Positions 26,665-34,585 of a stretch of DNA of 64,000 bases are shown here, in pieces; within the stretch, counting starts at the first letter, position 1; the number at the start of each line of letters is the position of its first letter. The notes under the pieces are model-generated. The model did no database searches. It saw nothing but the letters and a program-made list of their open reading frames with translations, and had not been told where the DNA came from. Source of the stretch: Acidobacteriota bacterium (GTDB lineage: Bacteria > Acidobacteriota > Terriglobia > Bryobacterales > UBA6623). The stretch spans positions 310,001-374,000 of the forward strand of contig WGMB01000007.1 in assembly GCA_016125275.1 (NCBI GenBank), given 5' to 3'. Made by a program: the position numbers and the translations under genes.

Positions 26665-29600
26665 ATGGTGAGACGGCTTGGTTTTTTGGCGGTTCTGCTT
26701 TTGCTGCTGGGCGGGGGTGAGCGGGCTGCTGCGGAACTTCAGATCTACTGCAGCGAGATCGCCACACCGGCGCAAGTCAAGGCCCAAGGGACGGCCGAGC
26801 CCCTCGGAGATATCCTCATCCTCTGCAACGCCAGCCGCTATCCGCCGGCGCCCACGGAGTTGCAGATCGACATTCAAGTGACCCTCAACTCCACGTTGGC
26901 TAATGCGGACCTAGGCAACGGCATCACCAGCGCCGTCCTGACTGTCAACGAGAATGAGTGTGAAACCCCGGCCGCGACCGGTGGAACCTACTCGAGCTGC
27001 GGTGCGCCGGATTCGCGGTTTCAGGACCCGCAATCGGGTCTCAAGACCGCCAACAACACGCTGAAATGGAAGTCGGTCCGATTCCCGGTCCCTGGTGCGC
27101 CGGCGACGGGCGGAGCTGGTTGTTCGGACTGTTATCCCATCATTACCGTATTGCGTCTCACCGGAATTAGGTCGACCGTCCCCGAAGCGGAGGTTGTGGC
27201 GTCTCTTTCGATCACCGGTTCACAGGAACTCTACTTTCTCAATAAGAAACTCGTGGTCGGGCGCGCTTCCGATACGGTCGGGGGCGACTATGGCAACGCG
27301 TCCCCCGGCGAGTCGGGCACGGCCTCTTGCGGCTTGTCCGCCGGAGTTCCGCCGCTCGACTCGGCGGGAACGACGGAGCGCCTCGGGTCAATCCTGCTCG
27401 ATTGCAGCAACTTCACGCATCCGTCGTTCATCCCACAGCCCCAGGGACTGCTGTTTGACCTAGTTCTGGAGCTCAACGTCGACTTTACCGGGCCCACGTC
27501 CATCGAGCCCGATGGGACGGTGCTGACCGAGGTAACCCTGACAATCGACGGCGATCAGGCGGGAGCCTACTTGGCGGAGCTCGAGAGCCCAAGAAAGATC
27601 CGATTTCGCGAAGTTGCGCTTCCCTTTTCAGTCGATCATCCGTTGGCCAAGGCGGTGATCGACAACTTGATCGCGGACAGCTCTCAAGTGATGGCGGTTC
27701 CGGCCCCCGGAATGGCGACGGCTCTGGTCTCGGTGTCCGGGAGCAGGGCCCTGGCGATGTCCGTCAGCGAGCTGAACGTAGGCGTTCTAGGCGACGAGCC
27801 TTTCGATGTTAGCCACGATTTGGCAATTCCGCTTGAGTGTGGCGTTAACGCCACCCCGCTAGTGCTCCGAGCGCAGGCAATTACAAGCCTCCAGGCTGAT
27901 ATTGTCCTAACCTGTATTCATTCGGGCTTGCTGCCGGGTGACAACCCCACGTTCACGGCCGATCTTTTCTTGGACTTGAACGTCGATGTGACCAATAACA
28001 TCGGATTCTCCGGCGCGGACCTGACGGACGCTGTGCTTGTGGTGAATGAGAATAACTGCTTCTCCCCAGCGGCCGCCGGTTCGACCTTTGGGTCCTGCGG
28101 CGCTCCCTTTCCAGAGATGCAGGACCCCCAATACGGTCGACTGATCAGTCCCCATCGCATCGTTTGGGAGGACGTGGCGGTTCCCGTCCCCGGATTCGAT
28201 CCCGACGGCGGCGGGCCAGCCACCGCTTATCCGTTGGTCACGACGCTCAGGCTGACGGGAGTCCGTGGGAACAGCTCTCAACTGGGGATTCCGTCAGTCC
28301 CCAGCTTCCCGAGGGCGGAAGTCACCGCATCTCTCACCGTCGGAGGCACTGCAAGCCTAGCCCTCCGCACGAATGTCCTCGATACCGGACTCCCGCTTCT
28401 CGGAATGATCACGAGCCTTAGCCCCGGACCGGTGGTCGCCCAGCAGTGTCGCTCCGGCGAAGGCCAAACGGCGATTCGCCTCAATGAGGCCTTCACCAAC
28501 GCGTTCAAGTTGGAGGGCTCCCCAGACTTCGTTTCCTACAACGCGCAGTGGGAGTCCGGCTACTATGCGCCGGGCTCGAACAACGGGGGCGGGGCTTCGC
28601 AGGCCACGCGGTTTCTTTTGCGGTTCGTCAATGTGCCTTCCGGGGTGCAGGTGGACCTGCCGCGGCACGTTGATACGGGGTCGGACCCCGCCGTCACCGG
28701 CGACGCGCTGGAGCTGCGGCTGCTGGAGGGGACCGACGAGCGAGGCGCCGGCGGAGCGCTCGTCGCCGGGGAAGGACTGCAGTCGGTCGCGTTGAGCTCC
28801 GGCACCGGCTCCGCCGTCTACGAAGTTGTCGACGAAGACCCATTCAGACTAGACACGATCGACATTCCCATCAGCGTAAGCTGGACCTCCGATACAGCCA
28901 ACGGGATGCCTGGCCTGGGCGACGCCCGCGTGATCGCCACGTTGGCGCCGTTGAGCACGGTGCTGGAAGCCAGCGGGCCGGAGCCCGAACCTCGCTTCGT
29001 GGACAACGGCGGCGAGGGGCTGGTGTTCTTCTCTTCCGTCCCGTGCACGACGACGCTCTTGTTCTCCACGGTCAGCAACCAGCAAGGCTCCGACACGCGG
29101 ATCGCGATAGCGAACACGTCCGGGTTGTCGGCGGGCGGCGAGGGGGAGGCTGGGGCTTGCACGGTGCACTATCACGGTGCGATGGAGGGCGGGGGGGCGG
29201 CTCCGTCGGATCAGACGTCGGTGATCCTGCAGCCCGGCGAGCAACTGGATTTCACGCTCTCCGGCGGCAGCATTGCGCAAGGCATTCCTGGCGCGCCTGG
29301 GTTTGCGGGCTATGTGATGGCGGAGTGCGAGTTCGATGGCGCAGTCGGCCGGTCGAACCAGGCCGCCCAGCAAGTTGAGATCGAAACTGCGCCGGAGACT
29401 GTCCTCCGTGACGCGCAGCGAGTGCGGCAGAGCCAAACACTGGGTCTGGTTCTGGATTTCGTCTCCGACCGGAATGACCTCGACACGGAGATCTCCGTGA
29501 TCAACACGACGGAAGATTGGTTCGGAACGCAGCTCGAGAGCGGCCAGTGCTTCGTAAAGCTAGGGTCGACGGGTTTTCAGACGCCGGAGATCCTGGGCGG

Positions 29601-31380
29601 GGAGACCTACACGTTCCAAGTGTCGAGCATCTCGCCGGGCTTTGAAGGGATGGTCAGCATCGACTGCGCGTTCGCCGAGGCGCGGGCCTTCGCGAAGGTG
29701 ACGCGCACGCCGACGCCGGGGCAGCCGGCGCCGCAGGCCTTCGGGCTGACCGCCGAGCGGCGGCCCGCCGCGGCAGGCTCCTCCACGCAGCTCCTGCTGC
29801 CGCACATCGACAGCCGCAACCGGCTGCACAGTTGGCTGGTGGTGACGAACACCTCGGTGGGCTTGGGAGCCTCGACGCCGACCGGCGGAACGTGCACGCT
29901 GAGCTACTTGGGCGACGCCGGCAGCCCGACGATTGCGCCGCAGACGCTGGCGCTGGCCGCCGGCGAGCAGGTGCGCTTCCGGCTCTCGGAAGGCTTGCCG
30001 GCAAAAGGGATCGCCTCCGCCTCGGACTTCTTCGGGTCGCTGGCGCTGAGCTGCGACTTTCCGCTGGCTCGGGCCACGGCGCTGAGCTTCGAAGGGACCG
30101 GCGGCCGATCGCGGGCGAGCTTCGCGCAGCAAGCCGAGGTGATCTCCGCGCCACGCAGCACGTTGGTGCACAGCGTGACCTTCCCCGGCTTGGCCGACAC
30201 GGCCCAGCGCCAGCCGATCGTGACCCTGACGAACACGACGCTGGACGTCTTCGGCACGACGCCACAGGCGGGAAGCTGCCTGCTGGACTACCGCGGAACG
30301 GCGCCGGGCGGCGTGCCGTCGCCCACGGCGGTCAGCCTCGCCGCCGGCGAACGGCTGCGCTTCGCGATCAGCGAAGGGCTGGCGGCGAAGGGCGTCCCGG
30401 CGGCGCCGGGGTTTGTGGGATTCCTGGTCGCCACCTGCGACTTCCCGCTGGCTCGCGGACTGCAGTTTCGGCGCAAGGCCGTCACGCCGCTGCAGTTGAG
30501 CCAGCGGCCGGGCGTGTATCTGGACGGCGAGTGGCGGTTGGACGTGGACGGCGACGCGGTGTTCAACCCGGCCGTGGACAAGCGCATCTTCCTGGGCTTC
30601 CCGGGAGCGACGCCGGTGGTGGGCGATTGGAACGGAGACGGCCGCGACGACGTGGGCGTCTACGCCGGAGGTTTCTGGTTCCTGGACTTTGACGGTGACG
30701 CGAACTGGGATGGCGGGGTGAACGACAAGCTGTTCGCCTACGGCTTTGCGGGCGCTGAACCGGTGGTGGGCGACTGGAACGGAGACGGCCGCGACGACGT
30801 GGGCGTGTACGCGAAAGGCTTCTGGTTCCTCGACGCCAACGGCGACCAGTTGTGGGACGGCGGCGTGCAGGACACGCTGTTCGGCCTGGGCTGGCCGGGC
30901 GTGACGACGCTGGTGGGGGACTGGAACGGGGACGGTCGCGACAAGGTGGGCGTCTACGCGCTGGGCTTCTGGTTCCTGGACTACGACGGCGACGCGAACT
31001 GGGATGGCGGGGTGGTCGACCGGCAGTTCGGCTGGGGCGGCTGGTCGGGGATCAAGCCCATCCCAGGGGACTGGAACGGCGACGGAAGGGACCAAGCGGC
31101 AGTGGCTCCGGTCAATCAGACGGGCTCCTGGTTCGTGGACTACGACGGCGACGCGCAGTACGGCCCGGCGGACCGCTCGATCCCGCTGGGCTTCAGCGGA
31201 ACCGAACCCGTGCCGGGCGACTGGAATGGCGACGGCCGGATGACGCCGGGCATCGTCAACGCGAAGACCTTCTGGTTCCCGGACGTGAACGGCGACTACC
31301 TCTGGGCCCAGCCTGGCGACCCGATCTGGACCTGGGGCCTGGGCTCCCTCAACTCCGTCATCTTCCCCGGCCGCTGGTAA
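26665..31380 (+). CDS. Very large secreted multi-repeat protein with C-terminal GDWNGDGR (FG-GAP/VCBS-like) repeats
   Basis: The 1571-residue protein has a signal peptide (GFLAVLLLLLGGGERAAAE). Residues about 25-590 hold three related modules of roughly 180 residues, two of which share VNEN(E/N)C and SCGAP with paired cysteines. After a transition (about 590-780) come four modules of about 115 residues, each with TNT/NTT, a Cys before an aromatic strand, an AGE(Q/R) turn, and a closing Cys-Asp/Glu-Phe. The last 350 residues carry five GDWNGDGR units spaced 49-50 residues, alternating with FWFLD(F/Y)DGDANWDGG, a pattern expected to bind calcium in beta-propeller or VCBS-type repeats. No sortase, PEP-CTERM or type IX sorting tail is evident. 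It may act in adhesion or matrix. The first 1.8 kb is less GC-rich than the rest. Confidence 0.8.
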   Translation: MVRRLGFLAVLLLLLGGGERAAAELQIYCSEIATPAQVKAQGTAEPLGDILILCNASRYPPAPTELQIDIQVTLNSTLANADLGNGITSAVLTVNENECETPAATGGTYSSCGAPDSRFQDPQSGLKTANNTLKWKSVRFPVPGAPATGGAGCSDCYPIITVLRLTGIRSTVPEAEVVASLSITGSQELYFLNKKLVVGRASDTVGGDYGNASPGESGTASCGLSAGVPPLDSAGTTERLGSILLDCSNFTHPSFIPQPQGLLFDLVLELNVDFTGPTSIEPDGTVLTEVTLTIDGDQAGAYLAELESPRKIRFREVALPFSVDHPLAKAVIDNLIADSSQVMAVPAPGMATALVSVSGSRALAMSVSELNVGVLGDEPFDVSHDLAIPLECGVNATPLVLRAQAITSLQADIVLTCIHSGLLPGDNPTFTADLFLDLNVDVTNNIGFSGADLTDAVLVVNENNCFSPAAAGSTFGSCGAPFPEMQDPQYGRLISPHRIVWEDVAVPVPGFDPDGGGPATAYPLVTTLRLTGVRGNSSQLGIPSVPSFPRAEVTASLTVGGTASLALRTNVLDTGLPLLGMITSLSPGPVVAQQCRSGEGQTAIRLNEAFTNAFKLEGSPDFVSYNAQWESGYYAPGSNNGGGASQATRFLLRFVNVPSGVQVDLPRHVDTGSDPAVTGDALELRLLEGTDERGAGGALVAGEGLQSVALSSGTGSAVYEVVDEDPFRLDTIDIPISVSWTSDTANGMPGLGDARVIATLAPLSTVLEASGPEPEPRFVDNGGEGLVFFSSVPCTTTLLFSTVSNQQGSDTRIAIANTSGLSAGGEGEAGACTVHYHGAMEGGGAAPSDQTSVILQPGEQLDFTLSGGSIAQGIPGAPGFAGYVMAECEFDGAVGRSNQAAQQVEIETAPETVLRDAQRVRQSQTLGLVLDFVSDRNDLDTEISVINTTEDWFGTQLESGQCFVKLGSTGFQTPEILGGETYTFQVSSISPGFEGMVSIDCAFAEARAFAKVTRTPTPGQPAPQAFGLTAERRPAAAGSSTQLLLPHIDSRNRLHSWLVVTNTSVGLGASTPTGGTCTLSYLGDAGSPTIAPQTLALAAGEQVRFRLSEGLPAKGIASASDFFGSLALSCDFPLARATALSFEGTGGRSRASFAQQAEVISAPRSTLVHSVTFPGLADTAQRQPIVTLTNTTLDVFGTTPQAGSCLLDYRGTAPGGVPSPTAVSLAAGERLRFAISEGLAAKGVPAAPGFVGFLVATCDFPLARGLQFRRKAVTPLQLSQRPGVYLDGEWRLDVDGDAVFNPAVDKRIFLGFPGATPVVGDWNGDGRDDVGVYAGGFWFLDFDGDANWDGGVNDKLFAYGFAGAEPVVGDWNGDGRDDVGVYAKGFWFLDANGDQLWDGGVQDTLFGLGWPGVTTLVGDWNGDGRDKVGVYALGFWFLDYDGDANWDGGVVDRQFGWGGWSGIKPIPGDWNGDGRDQAAVAPVNQTGSWFVDYDGDAQYGPADRSIPLGFSGTEPVPGDWNGDGRMTPGIVNAKTFWFPDVNGDYLWAQPGDPIWTWGLGSLNSVIFPGRW
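30622..31240 (+). repeat. Five tandem repeats of 147-150 bp encoding GDWNGDGR units
   Basis: The Gly-Asp-Trp-Asn unit recurs at 30622, 30769, 30916, 31066 and 31216, giving periods of 147, 147, 150 and 150 bases. The first three copies are close at nucleotide level, which suggests recent duplication and makes the copy number prone to change. Confidence 0.85.
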
Positions 31381-31418: not shown

Positions 31419-33458
31419 TTAGTAGATCCGTTCCTGCCGCTTCTCACGGCGGTAGGGGTTCTCCAGGTACTTGCGGGCCTCGTCCTGCGCGTTCTGGGTG
31501 TTGTCGCGTGTGCGGATGGCGAGTTGGTACTCGTTGACGGCGCGGTCGCGCTGGCCGGTCACGTCAAAGATCTTGCCCAGGTTGATGTGGGCCCAAACGA
31601 CCGTCCACTCCGGCTGTTGGTCGCCGTTGATGGACTCGCGGAACTCGTTGGCCGCCGACTGGTAGTTGTTCTGCAGGAAGAACACCTCGCCGATGCGGTA
31701 GTGCGCCAGCGAGCTGTAGCGGTTGATGTCCAGCGACTTCTGGTACTCCTGCAGGGCATCGGTATAGTAGCCCAGTTCCACCAACTGCTCGCCCTTGCGG
31801 ATCGCCACCTTCACGCGGATGTCGTCGTCGAAGCGTAGGATGCGGTTGTTGGGGTCGAGTTCCACCTTCTTCGGCTTGCCGAAGGCTTCCACCGAGTAGT
31901 CCGACGAGGCGCCGACGACGTTGATCGTGCGGTACTCGGGCTCGCCTTCGGTGTCGATGCGGAGTTCCACCGGCATCGAGAAGGTGTCCATATCCTGCTT
32001 GACCTTGCCCAGCACCCGGAAGCCCTTGCCCTGGCCTAGCCGGTAGATCGTGTACTCCTGGGTGAACTCCGGCGTCGCCACCGACTCGATCCACTGGATG
32101 AAGAACGGGCTCAGGTCGCGGCCGGTGACGCGCTCGGCCAACTCCTGGAAGTCCTGCGTGGTGGCGGACTTGTAAGCGTACTCGCTGGCGAAGGTCTTGA
32201 GCACTTCGTCGAACTTCTCCGGCGTGATCATCCAGCGCAGCATGTTCATGACCATGGCGCCCTTGGCGCCGGCCAGCGCGTCGAGCTCCGGAGAAAACTC
32301 CGGCAGCCGGTCGGACTGGATGATCGGGATCTCGTTATAGGTCAGCGCCTCGACCCGCGTGGCCTGGATCTCCTGGTCGAACGCTTCCTGCCCCTGGGAG
32401 TCCTGGATCTCGAGCAACGCCGAGTACCAAGCCAAGCCGTGGTCGAGCCACACGTGCCGGCGGTTGCCGGGCGTGACGATCGAGCGCCACCACTGGTGCG
32501 CCACCTGCGTTCCCAGCAGCCGCCGGTTGACGGCCTGCCGGATGCCGTAGGGGCTCATGAAGATGACGCCCGGCGCGGCGAAGGCTTCCGGACCGTAGTC
32601 GCCGATCTCGACCAGCGTGAGCGACTGCGAGTACGGCGAGCCGAAGCGCTCGGTCATGTCGGCCATGATCTCGCCGGTGGCCTCGCCGTAGGCCCGGGCC
32701 AAGTCCTCCGAGGCGGTCTGGAAGTAGACCGTCGTGGTGACGCCGTTCTTCTCGGCGCGGGTCGGCTCGCCCTTTACGAAGGCCACGCTGCCGGGGAACG
32801 ACTGCTGCGAGAACTCGAACTTGTGCTCCACGCCGTTGACCACTTCGCTCGAGCCGCCCAGGCCGCTGCCGATCCCCTTGTACCCCGGCGGCGTGGTGAT
32901 GCGAATCGAGGCGGCGAACTGATCGGCGCCGTAGCCATTGACCGGGAACCAGCGGCCCGGGTAGAGCAGATAGGAGCCGTCGGGCGCGATCGACGCCAAG
33001 TCCAGCCCCTCGACCGGCGAATTCTCATAGCCCTTGAGCTGACCCTCGTACTCGAAGGTCACCGCCATGGGCTGGCCGATGACGAGCTGATCGGGAAAAG
33101 TCACCCGCACGCTGGAGTCCTGCCGATACCGCAGCGGGCTCAGGTCCGTACCGTCTTCGAGCTTCACGCTGCGGACGTCGAGTCCGTTGTGCAGCTCCAT
33201 GACGATGTGGTTGGTCGCCTCGCGCGGAATGAAGGTCACCTTGGCCTGGGCTTGCAGGGTGGACGAGCCGGGGTCGATGCGGCCTTCGATGTCGTAACGC
33301 TGCACATCGATCAGCGGACGGTCCTCGGCGCTCTGCGCGCCCGCTTGGCCCGCCCACAGCAAGGCCAGGGCCAGCAGACCGGCTGCCGTCCAGAGCCATT
33401 GCCGGGCAGGGGCCCCCTGGAGGGCCTCGACCTTGACCGTTGCATCCTTTCTCTTCAT
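31419..33458 (-). CDS. M1 aminopeptidase-like protein with destroyed zinc site, plus C-terminal TPRs
   Basis: Start ATG at 33458 overlaps the lpxB stop (ATGA), has GGGTGGA upstream, and gives 679 residues with a signal peptide (LLALALLWAGQAGAQS); the track's longer version is not supported. The N-terminal beta domain and catalytic-like domain resemble M1 metallopeptidases. The canonical HExxH-18-E zinc motif is kept in spacing but not residues: GTQVAHQWW (Thr317, Gln318, His321) and WLDHGLAWY (His340 in place of the Glu ligand). The exopeptidase GAMEN element is replaced by EAFAAPG. Activity as a zinc peptidase is therefore improbable. Residues about 560-660 form about three TPRs (YYTDALQEYQKSLDINRYSS). 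A periplasmic scaffold or chaperone role is plausible but inferred. It is the last gene of the DUF72-lpxB operon. Confidence 0.82.
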   Translation of the reverse strand: MKRKDATVKVEALQGAPARQWLWTAAGLLALALLWAGQAGAQSAEDRPLIDVQRYDIEGRIDPGSSTLQAQAKVTFIPREATNHIVMELHNGLDVRSVKLEDGTDLSPLRYRQDSSVRVTFPDQLVIGQPMAVTFEYEGQLKGYENSPVEGLDLASIAPDGSYLLYPGRWFPVNGYGADQFAASIRITTPPGYKGIGSGLGGSSEVVNGVEHKFEFSQQSFPGSVAFVKGEPTRAEKNGVTTTVYFQTASEDLARAYGEATGEIMADMTERFGSPYSQSLTLVEIGDYGPEAFAAPGVIFMSPYGIRQAVNRRLLGTQVAHQWWRSIVTPGNRRHVWLDHGLAWYSALLEIQDSQGQEAFDQEIQATRVEALTYNEIPIIQSDRLPEFSPELDALAGAKGAMVMNMLRWMITPEKFDEVLKTFASEYAYKSATTQDFQELAERVTGRDLSPFFIQWIESVATPEFTQEYTIYRLGQGKGFRVLGKVKQDMDTFSMPVELRIDTEGEPEYRTINVVGASSDYSVEAFGKPKKVELDPNNRILRFDDDIRVKVAIRKGEQLVELGYYTDALQEYQKSLDINRYSSLAHYRIGEVFFLQNNYQSAANEFRESINGDQQPEWTVVWAHINLGKIFDVTGQRDRAVNEYQLAIRTRDNTQNAQDEARKYLENPYRREKRQERIY

Positions 33459-34585
33459 AGCGTCCACCCGAATCTGTCGCATACTACCTCCGCCGCTCGT
33501 TCCGCCGCCGCCTGGTCGCCCGCGAGCCGTTCGTGGATGGCGGCCAGCTCGCGCTTCATCTCTTTTCGGCGAGCCGGATCGGCGAGCAGCCTCTCCGCTT
33601 CCGCCGCCAGCCGCTCGGCGGTGCAGTCGCCCTGAATCAGCTCCGGGACGACCCGCCGTTCGGCGAGCAGGTTCACCATGCTGTAGAACGGCACGTGCAC
33701 CAACAATTTGCCCACCAGCCAACTTGCCGGCGTGACCCGGTAGAACACCACCATGGGGGCTCCGAGCAACGCCGCCTCGACTGTCGCCGTGCCGCTGGCT
33801 ACGAGCGCCAAGTCACAGTGGGCGAGCGCGTTGTGCGTGTCGTTTTCAACTATAGTGACGGACCGCCCGCCGATGCGTTGCCGAAAAAATGCGTCGCCGG
33901 TGGTGGAAGAGGCCGGCAACACCGCCTGAATCGGGCGGTTTTCGCGCAGGCGGTCGAGGGCTCCGAGCACGGCGGGCAGATGGCGCTCGGCTTCACCCCG
34001 GCGGCTGCCCGGCAGCATCGCCAGGATCGGCTGATCGTCCCTCAGTTCGTACCGATCCAGGAACGTCCGACGGTCGACGGTGGGCTCGAGCGACTGCGTG
34101 AGCGGGTGGCCGACAAAGACGGTACGAACGCCGCGCCGGTTGAACCAATCTTCCTCAAAGGGAAAGATGCACAGCAGCAGGTCGAGCAGCCGTCTCAGTT
34201 TCCGCACCCGCCACGAGCGCCAGGCCCACACCTGTGGGGCCACGTAGTAAACGATGGGAACGCCCTGCCGCTGGAGCTTGGCGGCGACGCGCAGGTTGAA
34301 GTCCGGGGCGTCGGTGAGGATCGCCAGGTCGGGCTTCTCGGCTTCGGCGGCGCGCAGCAGCTTACGGAACTCGCCGTAGATGCGCGGAATGTGCCCGAGG
34401 ACCTCGAAGATCCCCACCACGGCGAGCGATTCGGTCTCCACCACCGCCCGCACGCCTTGCTCTCGCAGGCGTTTGCCGGCGCAACCGAAAAATTCCGCCT
34501 GCGGCAACCGCCGGCGCAACGCCGCCACCAGCTCGGCGGCATAGCGATCGCCTGACGCTTCGCCGGCGGAAACCAGGATCTTCAT
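33455..34585 (-). CDS. lpxB: Lipid-A-disaccharide synthase LpxB
   Basis: LpxB joins UDP-diacylglucosamine and lipid X to form the lipid A disaccharide at the inner face of the inner membrane. The 376-residue protein has the GT19 hallmarks: MKILVSAGEASGDRYAAELV at the N-terminus, FFGCAGKRLREQGV, LTDAPDFNLRVA, VYYVAPQVWAWRSWRVRKLRR, FPFEEDWF and VFVGHPL, then MLPGSRRGEAERHLP and a C-terminal sugar-nucleotide region (SGTATVEAALLGAPMVVFYR). It is complete and of normal length. It shows the organism makes LPS. No other lpx genes are nearby. DUF72 is 29 bases upstream, and the M1-like gene overlaps by 4 bases. Confidence 0.96.
   Translation of the reverse strand: MKILVSAGEASGDRYAAELVAALRRRLPQAEFFGCAGKRLREQGVRAVVETESLAVVGIFEVLGHIPRIYGEFRKLLRAAEAEKPDLAILTDAPDFNLRVAAKLQRQGVPIVYYVAPQVWAWRSWRVRKLRRLLDLLLCIFPFEEDWFNRRGVRTVFVGHPLTQSLEPTVDRRTFLDRYELRDDQPILAMLPGSRRGEAERHLPAVLGALDRLRENRPIQAVLPASSTTGDAFFRQRIGGRSVTIVENDTHNALAHCDLALVASGTATVEAALLGAPMVVFYRVTPASWLVGKLLVHVPFYSMVNLLAERRVVPELIQGDCTAERLAAEAERLLADPARRKEMKRELAAIHERLAGDQAAAERAAEVVCDRFGWTL

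Follow-up and report, generated by a model that had tools for sequence, protein, structure and literature searches.

Predicted exported M1 pseudo-aminopeptidase-TPR proteins, probably non-catalytic binders, mostly encoded next to lpxB in much of the Acidobacteriota

The window, that is, the whole stretch of 64,000 nucleotides analysed here, carries on its minus strand an open reading frame (33458..31419, stop codon included) coding for a protein of 679 amino acids (P0001), which ORF and domain profiles mark as an M1-like pseudo-aminopeptidase with C-terminal TPRs (31419..33458). A Pfam search gave a Peptidase_M1 match above the curated cut-off (PF01433, E 6.6e-15, residues 318-456), a weak Peptidase_M1_N match (E 0.0025), and a TPR_2 match (E 6.3e-10; 38.8 bits against a cut-off of 27), the last in agreement with the TPRs proposed in the first-pass annotation. 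Pfam gave no M48 match in the 679-aa protein, for which no NCBIfam model exceeded its curated cut-off. Directly upstream on the same strand lies lpxB, encoding lipid-A-disaccharide synthase (33455..34585, minus; PF02684, 5.6e-98). The start of the pseudo-peptidase gene and the stop of lpxB share an ATGA (33455..33458, minus). The overlap of the two genes, noted earlier, was thus confirmed, with some doubt left only about which start codon is used. A GGAGG (33491-33487) closely precedes an in-frame ATG at 33482 (together 33480..33491, minus), and this ATG may be the true start, in which case the overlap would be 28 nt; the genes overlap with either start. Convergent to this pair, on the plus strand (26665-31380), lies a gene for an exported-looking protein of 1571 aa, whose C-terminus carries weak FG-GAP-type repeats and which has no other annotation.

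The segment LLGTQVAHQWW...WLDHGLAWY aligned without gaps to the [AV]HExxHQWW...WLxEGxAxY of true M1 peptidases. In this alignment with HExxH-bearing M1s, Thr317, Gln318, His321 and His340 replace H, E, H and E while the 18-residue spacing is kept, exactly as had been claimed at first pass. The degenerate HExxH is TQVAH (residues 317-321; 32496..32510, minus), His340 stands where the third zinc ligand Glu is expected (32439..32441, minus), and Ala398 occupies the usual M1 Tyr column. An intact HExxH at another place in the protein, which would have changed this picture, was found neither in the 679-aa protein nor in about 144 orthologue sequences checked. As the zinc site and the general base are gone, the protein is, judged from its sequence, almost certainly unable to act as an M1 peptidase. 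The GAMEN exopeptidase motif was not found in the protein either. Its absence had been read as a further sign of inactivation; however, GAMEN is also missing from the closest M1s of the phylum that do carry HExxH (e.g. L078 and L083), and the loss of this motif is accordingly not diagnostic.

An AlphaFold2 model made with 55 Bryobacterales-type sequences as the input had a pLDDT of 89.3 and a pTM of 0.85. The top Foldseek matches of the model were IRAP, ERAP1 and PSA, with E of about 1e-31 (9e-32), 650-760 columns and a TM of about 0.6. By sequence profile (hmmsearch), the best M1 was M1dr of Deinococcus (6a8z, 2.6e-33), and the profile match to M1 spanned residues of about 50-460. Both the profile and the fold matches are significant and indicate that the protein is, by homology, a member of the M1 fold superfamily; the alignment and the model called for in the first-pass annotation thus agreed on an M1 fold, its site degenerate in the alignment. 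In the model, three domains with approximate boundaries precede the TPRs: a beta domain like M1 domain I (residues 48-245; 32724..33317, minus; from model secondary structure and Foldseek), a thermolysin-like domain II with the zinc site lost (residues 246-462; 32073..32723, minus; from Pfam, the model and Foldseek), and a beta-sandwich like M1 domain III (residues 463-540; 31839..32072, minus; from the model and Foldseek). A TPR solenoid of seven helices follows (residues 545-666; 31461..31826, minus), as indicated by Pfam, the model and conservation. Judging from the span of the Foldseek alignment, this solenoid seems to stand in for M1 domain IV. In most of the HExxH-bearing relatives checked, the chain stops near the position of residue 541 in the window protein; hence, the TPR part looks like an addition of the pseudo-aminopeptidase family.

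The N-terminus is signal-peptide-like (residues 1-41; 33336..33458, minus), with a basic start and a hydrophobic helix at residues 19-38, also seen in the model, and then AGA-QS. A hydrophobic N-terminus was found by a simple hydrophobicity test in 59 of 70 and 61 of 74 orthologues, in line with the signal peptide called earlier. The pseudo-aminopeptidase is predicted to be exported and most likely periplasmic.

Orthologues were searched for in 297 Acidobacteriota genomes. Strong orthologues were present in about 95 of them, about 200 had no clear orthologue, and lpxB was present in 272; 71 sequences, the window protein included, were aligned. A scan of genome contigs, of which the best 80 matches were listed, gave 80 further loci, nearly all from Bryobacterales/Terriglobia. 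None of 150 further orthologues, which come from many Acidobacteriota families and include the best 80 of the contig scan, had an HExxH, and a homologue with a working site was therefore not met with; the first zinc His was absent in all 151 proteins counted when the window protein was included. Across the 71 aligned sequences, the first zinc position was Arg, Asn, Thr, Lys or Ser and never His, the general-base position was Thr, Glu, Arg and others, and the third-ligand position was mostly Asn, Asp or Gln. The residue combinations at the old site differed between lineages. Among the matches listed in the contig scan, TQHH was found in the window protein alone, and its closest relatives (61-65% identical) had TLHD, RQHY and TEHL. 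The common trait is accordingly the loss itself and not particular substitutes, so that the idea that homologues beside lpxB would show the same substitutions held for the loss and failed for the residues. These alignments indicate that the loss of the site is old and family-wide over much of the Acidobacteriota. A pair of lpxB and pseudopeptidase genes (L168, 48% identity) was also seen in an entry titled Acidimicrobiia bacterium, which is probably a mislabelled acidobacterial MAG.

In the same 71 sequences, the column entropies at positions 317, 318, 321, 340 and 398 were 1.27, 2.43, 2.08, 2.09 and 2.61, respectively, against a mean of 2.03, whereas those of Q322, W323 and W324 were 0.19-0.31, leaving a nearly invariant QWW beside the lost site. 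Such a pattern is expected where the catalytic constraint has been relaxed and the structural one retained. Five residues, K399, E508, D535, D632 and R637, are invariant in the family and might be taken to serve some other catalysis by a zinc-independent or re-engineered site. However, the old ligand positions vary by lineage with no conserved substitute set, and no HExxH stands elsewhere in the sequences checked; we regard such catalysis as very improbable.

The dN/dS values of 17 non-overlapping close pairs were 0.04-0.21, mostly 0.04-0.08; for 16 of the 17, the TPR gave a lower value than the M1 part. In the 71-sequence alignment, conservation along the protein is highest in the TPR block 581-660. 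Values this low point to strong purifying selection and speak strongly against decay. That the gene is a decaying copy, or an active enzyme mutated only recently, is next to impossible in view of this selection, the lack of a working site in all 150 orthologues, and frames that are open across many families of the phylum; recent inactivation or a pseudogene was rejected on the family-wide loss and the purifying selection. The earlier description of a retained pseudo-peptidase thus stands: as far as sequences can tell, the protein is a pseudopeptidase, its catalytic residues lost and its gene kept under selection across species.

In a tree built without the five site columns, 40 of 41 sampled HExxH-less proteins formed one block. 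This block adjoins an HExxH-bearing protein without TPRs that is cut by a contig end (L079). The tree suggests that a single origin of the inactive family is likely, with the branch order near L079 open and some branches long. Two other TPR proteins were seen. One (L075, G101:C34, 4803-6866) is distant, has the degenerate M1 site DARSIGYLWW, and branches apart from the main family. The other (L074, G280:C310, ORF 41-2755, minus) is an M1 with C-terminal TPRs that keeps HEIGH, with a spacing to the Glu three residues shorter, and it is the only intact-site M1-TPR protein seen. As a family member with a working site it was rejected, because the tree puts it outside the family, on long branches and with an unsure placement; no close kin of it were found in a search of 42 genomes.

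Regarding gene order, 72 orthologue loci from across the phylum were compared, that of the window counted; 49 had lpxB as the immediate upstream gene in the same orientation, and two more had it within about 1.3 kb. Of the 80 Bryobacterales-type loci (the best 80 of the contig scan), 78 had it upstream in the same orientation, and the two genes often overlap in the orthologue loci. Of the family's three main clades, two keep the adjacency. It is missing in one clade (18 sampled loci), which makes up most of the exceptions, and in the singletons L025 and L063; hence, a direct link with LpxB is not a strict requirement. Genomes of the unlinked clade have lpxB elsewhere, the sole exception in the sample being G157, in which lpxB was not found. 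A presence strictly tied to lpxB was rejected, since lpxB occurs in 272 of the 297 genomes as against about 95 with an orthologue.

No widely conserved neighbour other than lpxB was found in the phylum-wide and best-80 loci, nor any conserved neighbour in the clade without the linkage. A longer conserved operon was rejected because lpxB alone recurs widely. The "LPS operon" of the first-pass annotation was thus overstated: lpxB is the only conserved lipid-A neighbour, the others vary, and one clade has no linkage. In 13 loci of other families (L034, L035, L037-L039, L043-L047, L056, L060 and L062), mnmA stands upstream of the lpxB-pseudopeptidase pair, and in several of these mnmA loci the preceding genes resemble an ECF sigma factor and a sigma-54 regulator. 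The order ileS-DUF72-lpxB-pseudopeptidase of the window recurs in L091. Directly downstream of the pseudopeptidase gene, a conserved exported protein, TonB-C-like at its C-terminus by eye, is encoded in L057 (7051-7941), L063 (614-1504) and L072 (3411-4253); it is a possible functional partner.

Overlapping genes may be co-transcribed for reasons besides a shared pathway. The protein could be a periplasmic binder of peptides or proteins in general, non-catalytic and unrelated to LPS, that is merely on the lpxB transcript. That lpxB is the sole LPS gene conserved nearby, with mnmA, DUF72 and ileS among the neighbours, would fit this explanation, as would the loss of the linkage in one clade and the many lpxB-bearing genomes without an orthologue. 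However, two of the main clades, out of three, retain lpxB as the neighbour with little else conserved, and we take an LPS-unrelated binder to be a lesser possibility, though one of some weight. From the linkage to lpxB alone, a role in the envelope is close to evenly balanced, leaning slightly to the negative. LptD- and LptA/LptD_N-type proteins are coded in the genome of the window, and LPS export is therefore likely present.

We propose that the protein is an exported pseudo-aminopeptidase that keeps the M1 fold of domains I-III without the zinc site and the general base. The TPR groove, the vacated cleft or both would hold a client or partner protein by non-catalytic binding. A gene that overlaps and follows lpxB would couple the amount of the protein to lipid A synthesis, and with such coupling the partner would most likely be part of LPS or outer-membrane assembly. 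Export, client binding and the envelope role are each inferred, and we give this scaffold as a whole an even chance of being correct. The further reading that the family is a dedicated non-catalytic factor of LPS or outer-membrane biogenesis in the phylum, made in step with lpxB and holding its client by the cleft and the TPR groove, is more tentative. Another explanation is a dead partner subunit needed for the control or assembly of an active peptidase or some other complex, in the manner of the mitochondrial processing peptidase, in which the alpha subunit does this for beta. Inactive homologues serving active ones are an established pattern (PMC11266112), and the genome has two M1s with HExxH and several M48 proteins. 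However, no active peptidase gene is conserved beside the pseudo-aminopeptidase gene, and we consider this explanation unlikely.

We found no paper on an M1 pseudo-aminopeptidase-TPR family in the open-access literature searched, and the proteins seem to form an unnamed family of exported members that probably hold other proteins instead of cutting them. An M1 pseudo-aminopeptidase that is under selection, predicted to be exported and coupled to lpxB in much of a major soil phylum is a concrete candidate for an as yet unrecognized component of the envelope. Among eukaryotes, pseudoenzymes are a familiar phenomenon. In one review, the only M1 case named is yeast Tma108, and prokaryotes are represented only by M16-type pairs (PMC11266112). 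Tma108 is proposed to bind nascent chains via its substrate pocket, probably without catalysis (PMC11266112); unlike the present protein, in which the site is lost, it keeps nearly all active-site residues and acts at the ribosome.

The pseudo-aminopeptidase has its fold in common with ERAP1, IRAP and PSA (M1, domains I-IV) over almost the whole chain, whereas it has neither the HExxH-E nor the Tyr in the usual column of M1 aminopeptidases. M1s of the PSA type comprise four domains, the fourth being of HEAT type, as against only two in M1dr (PMC10343166); in the model, the pseudo-aminopeptidase would have a short TPR solenoid in place of the HEAT-type domain of PSA. In the TFIID subunit TAF2, an M1 aminopeptidase fold of four subdomains is put to structural use within a complex (PMC6220335). 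TAF2, likened here by its described fold, differs in being eukaryotic and nuclear, without TPRs or a link to LPS. BepA of E. coli, an M48 metalloprotease, contacts BAM and LptD through its TPR and has chaperone activity besides proteolysis (PMC7950410). It resembles the pseudo-aminopeptidase as a periplasmic protein with an HExxH-type peptidase fold and C-terminal TPRs, and differs in belonging to an unrelated peptidase family and in its intact site. As an analogy only, BepA shows that a peptidase fold joined to TPRs can act on LptD and BAM.
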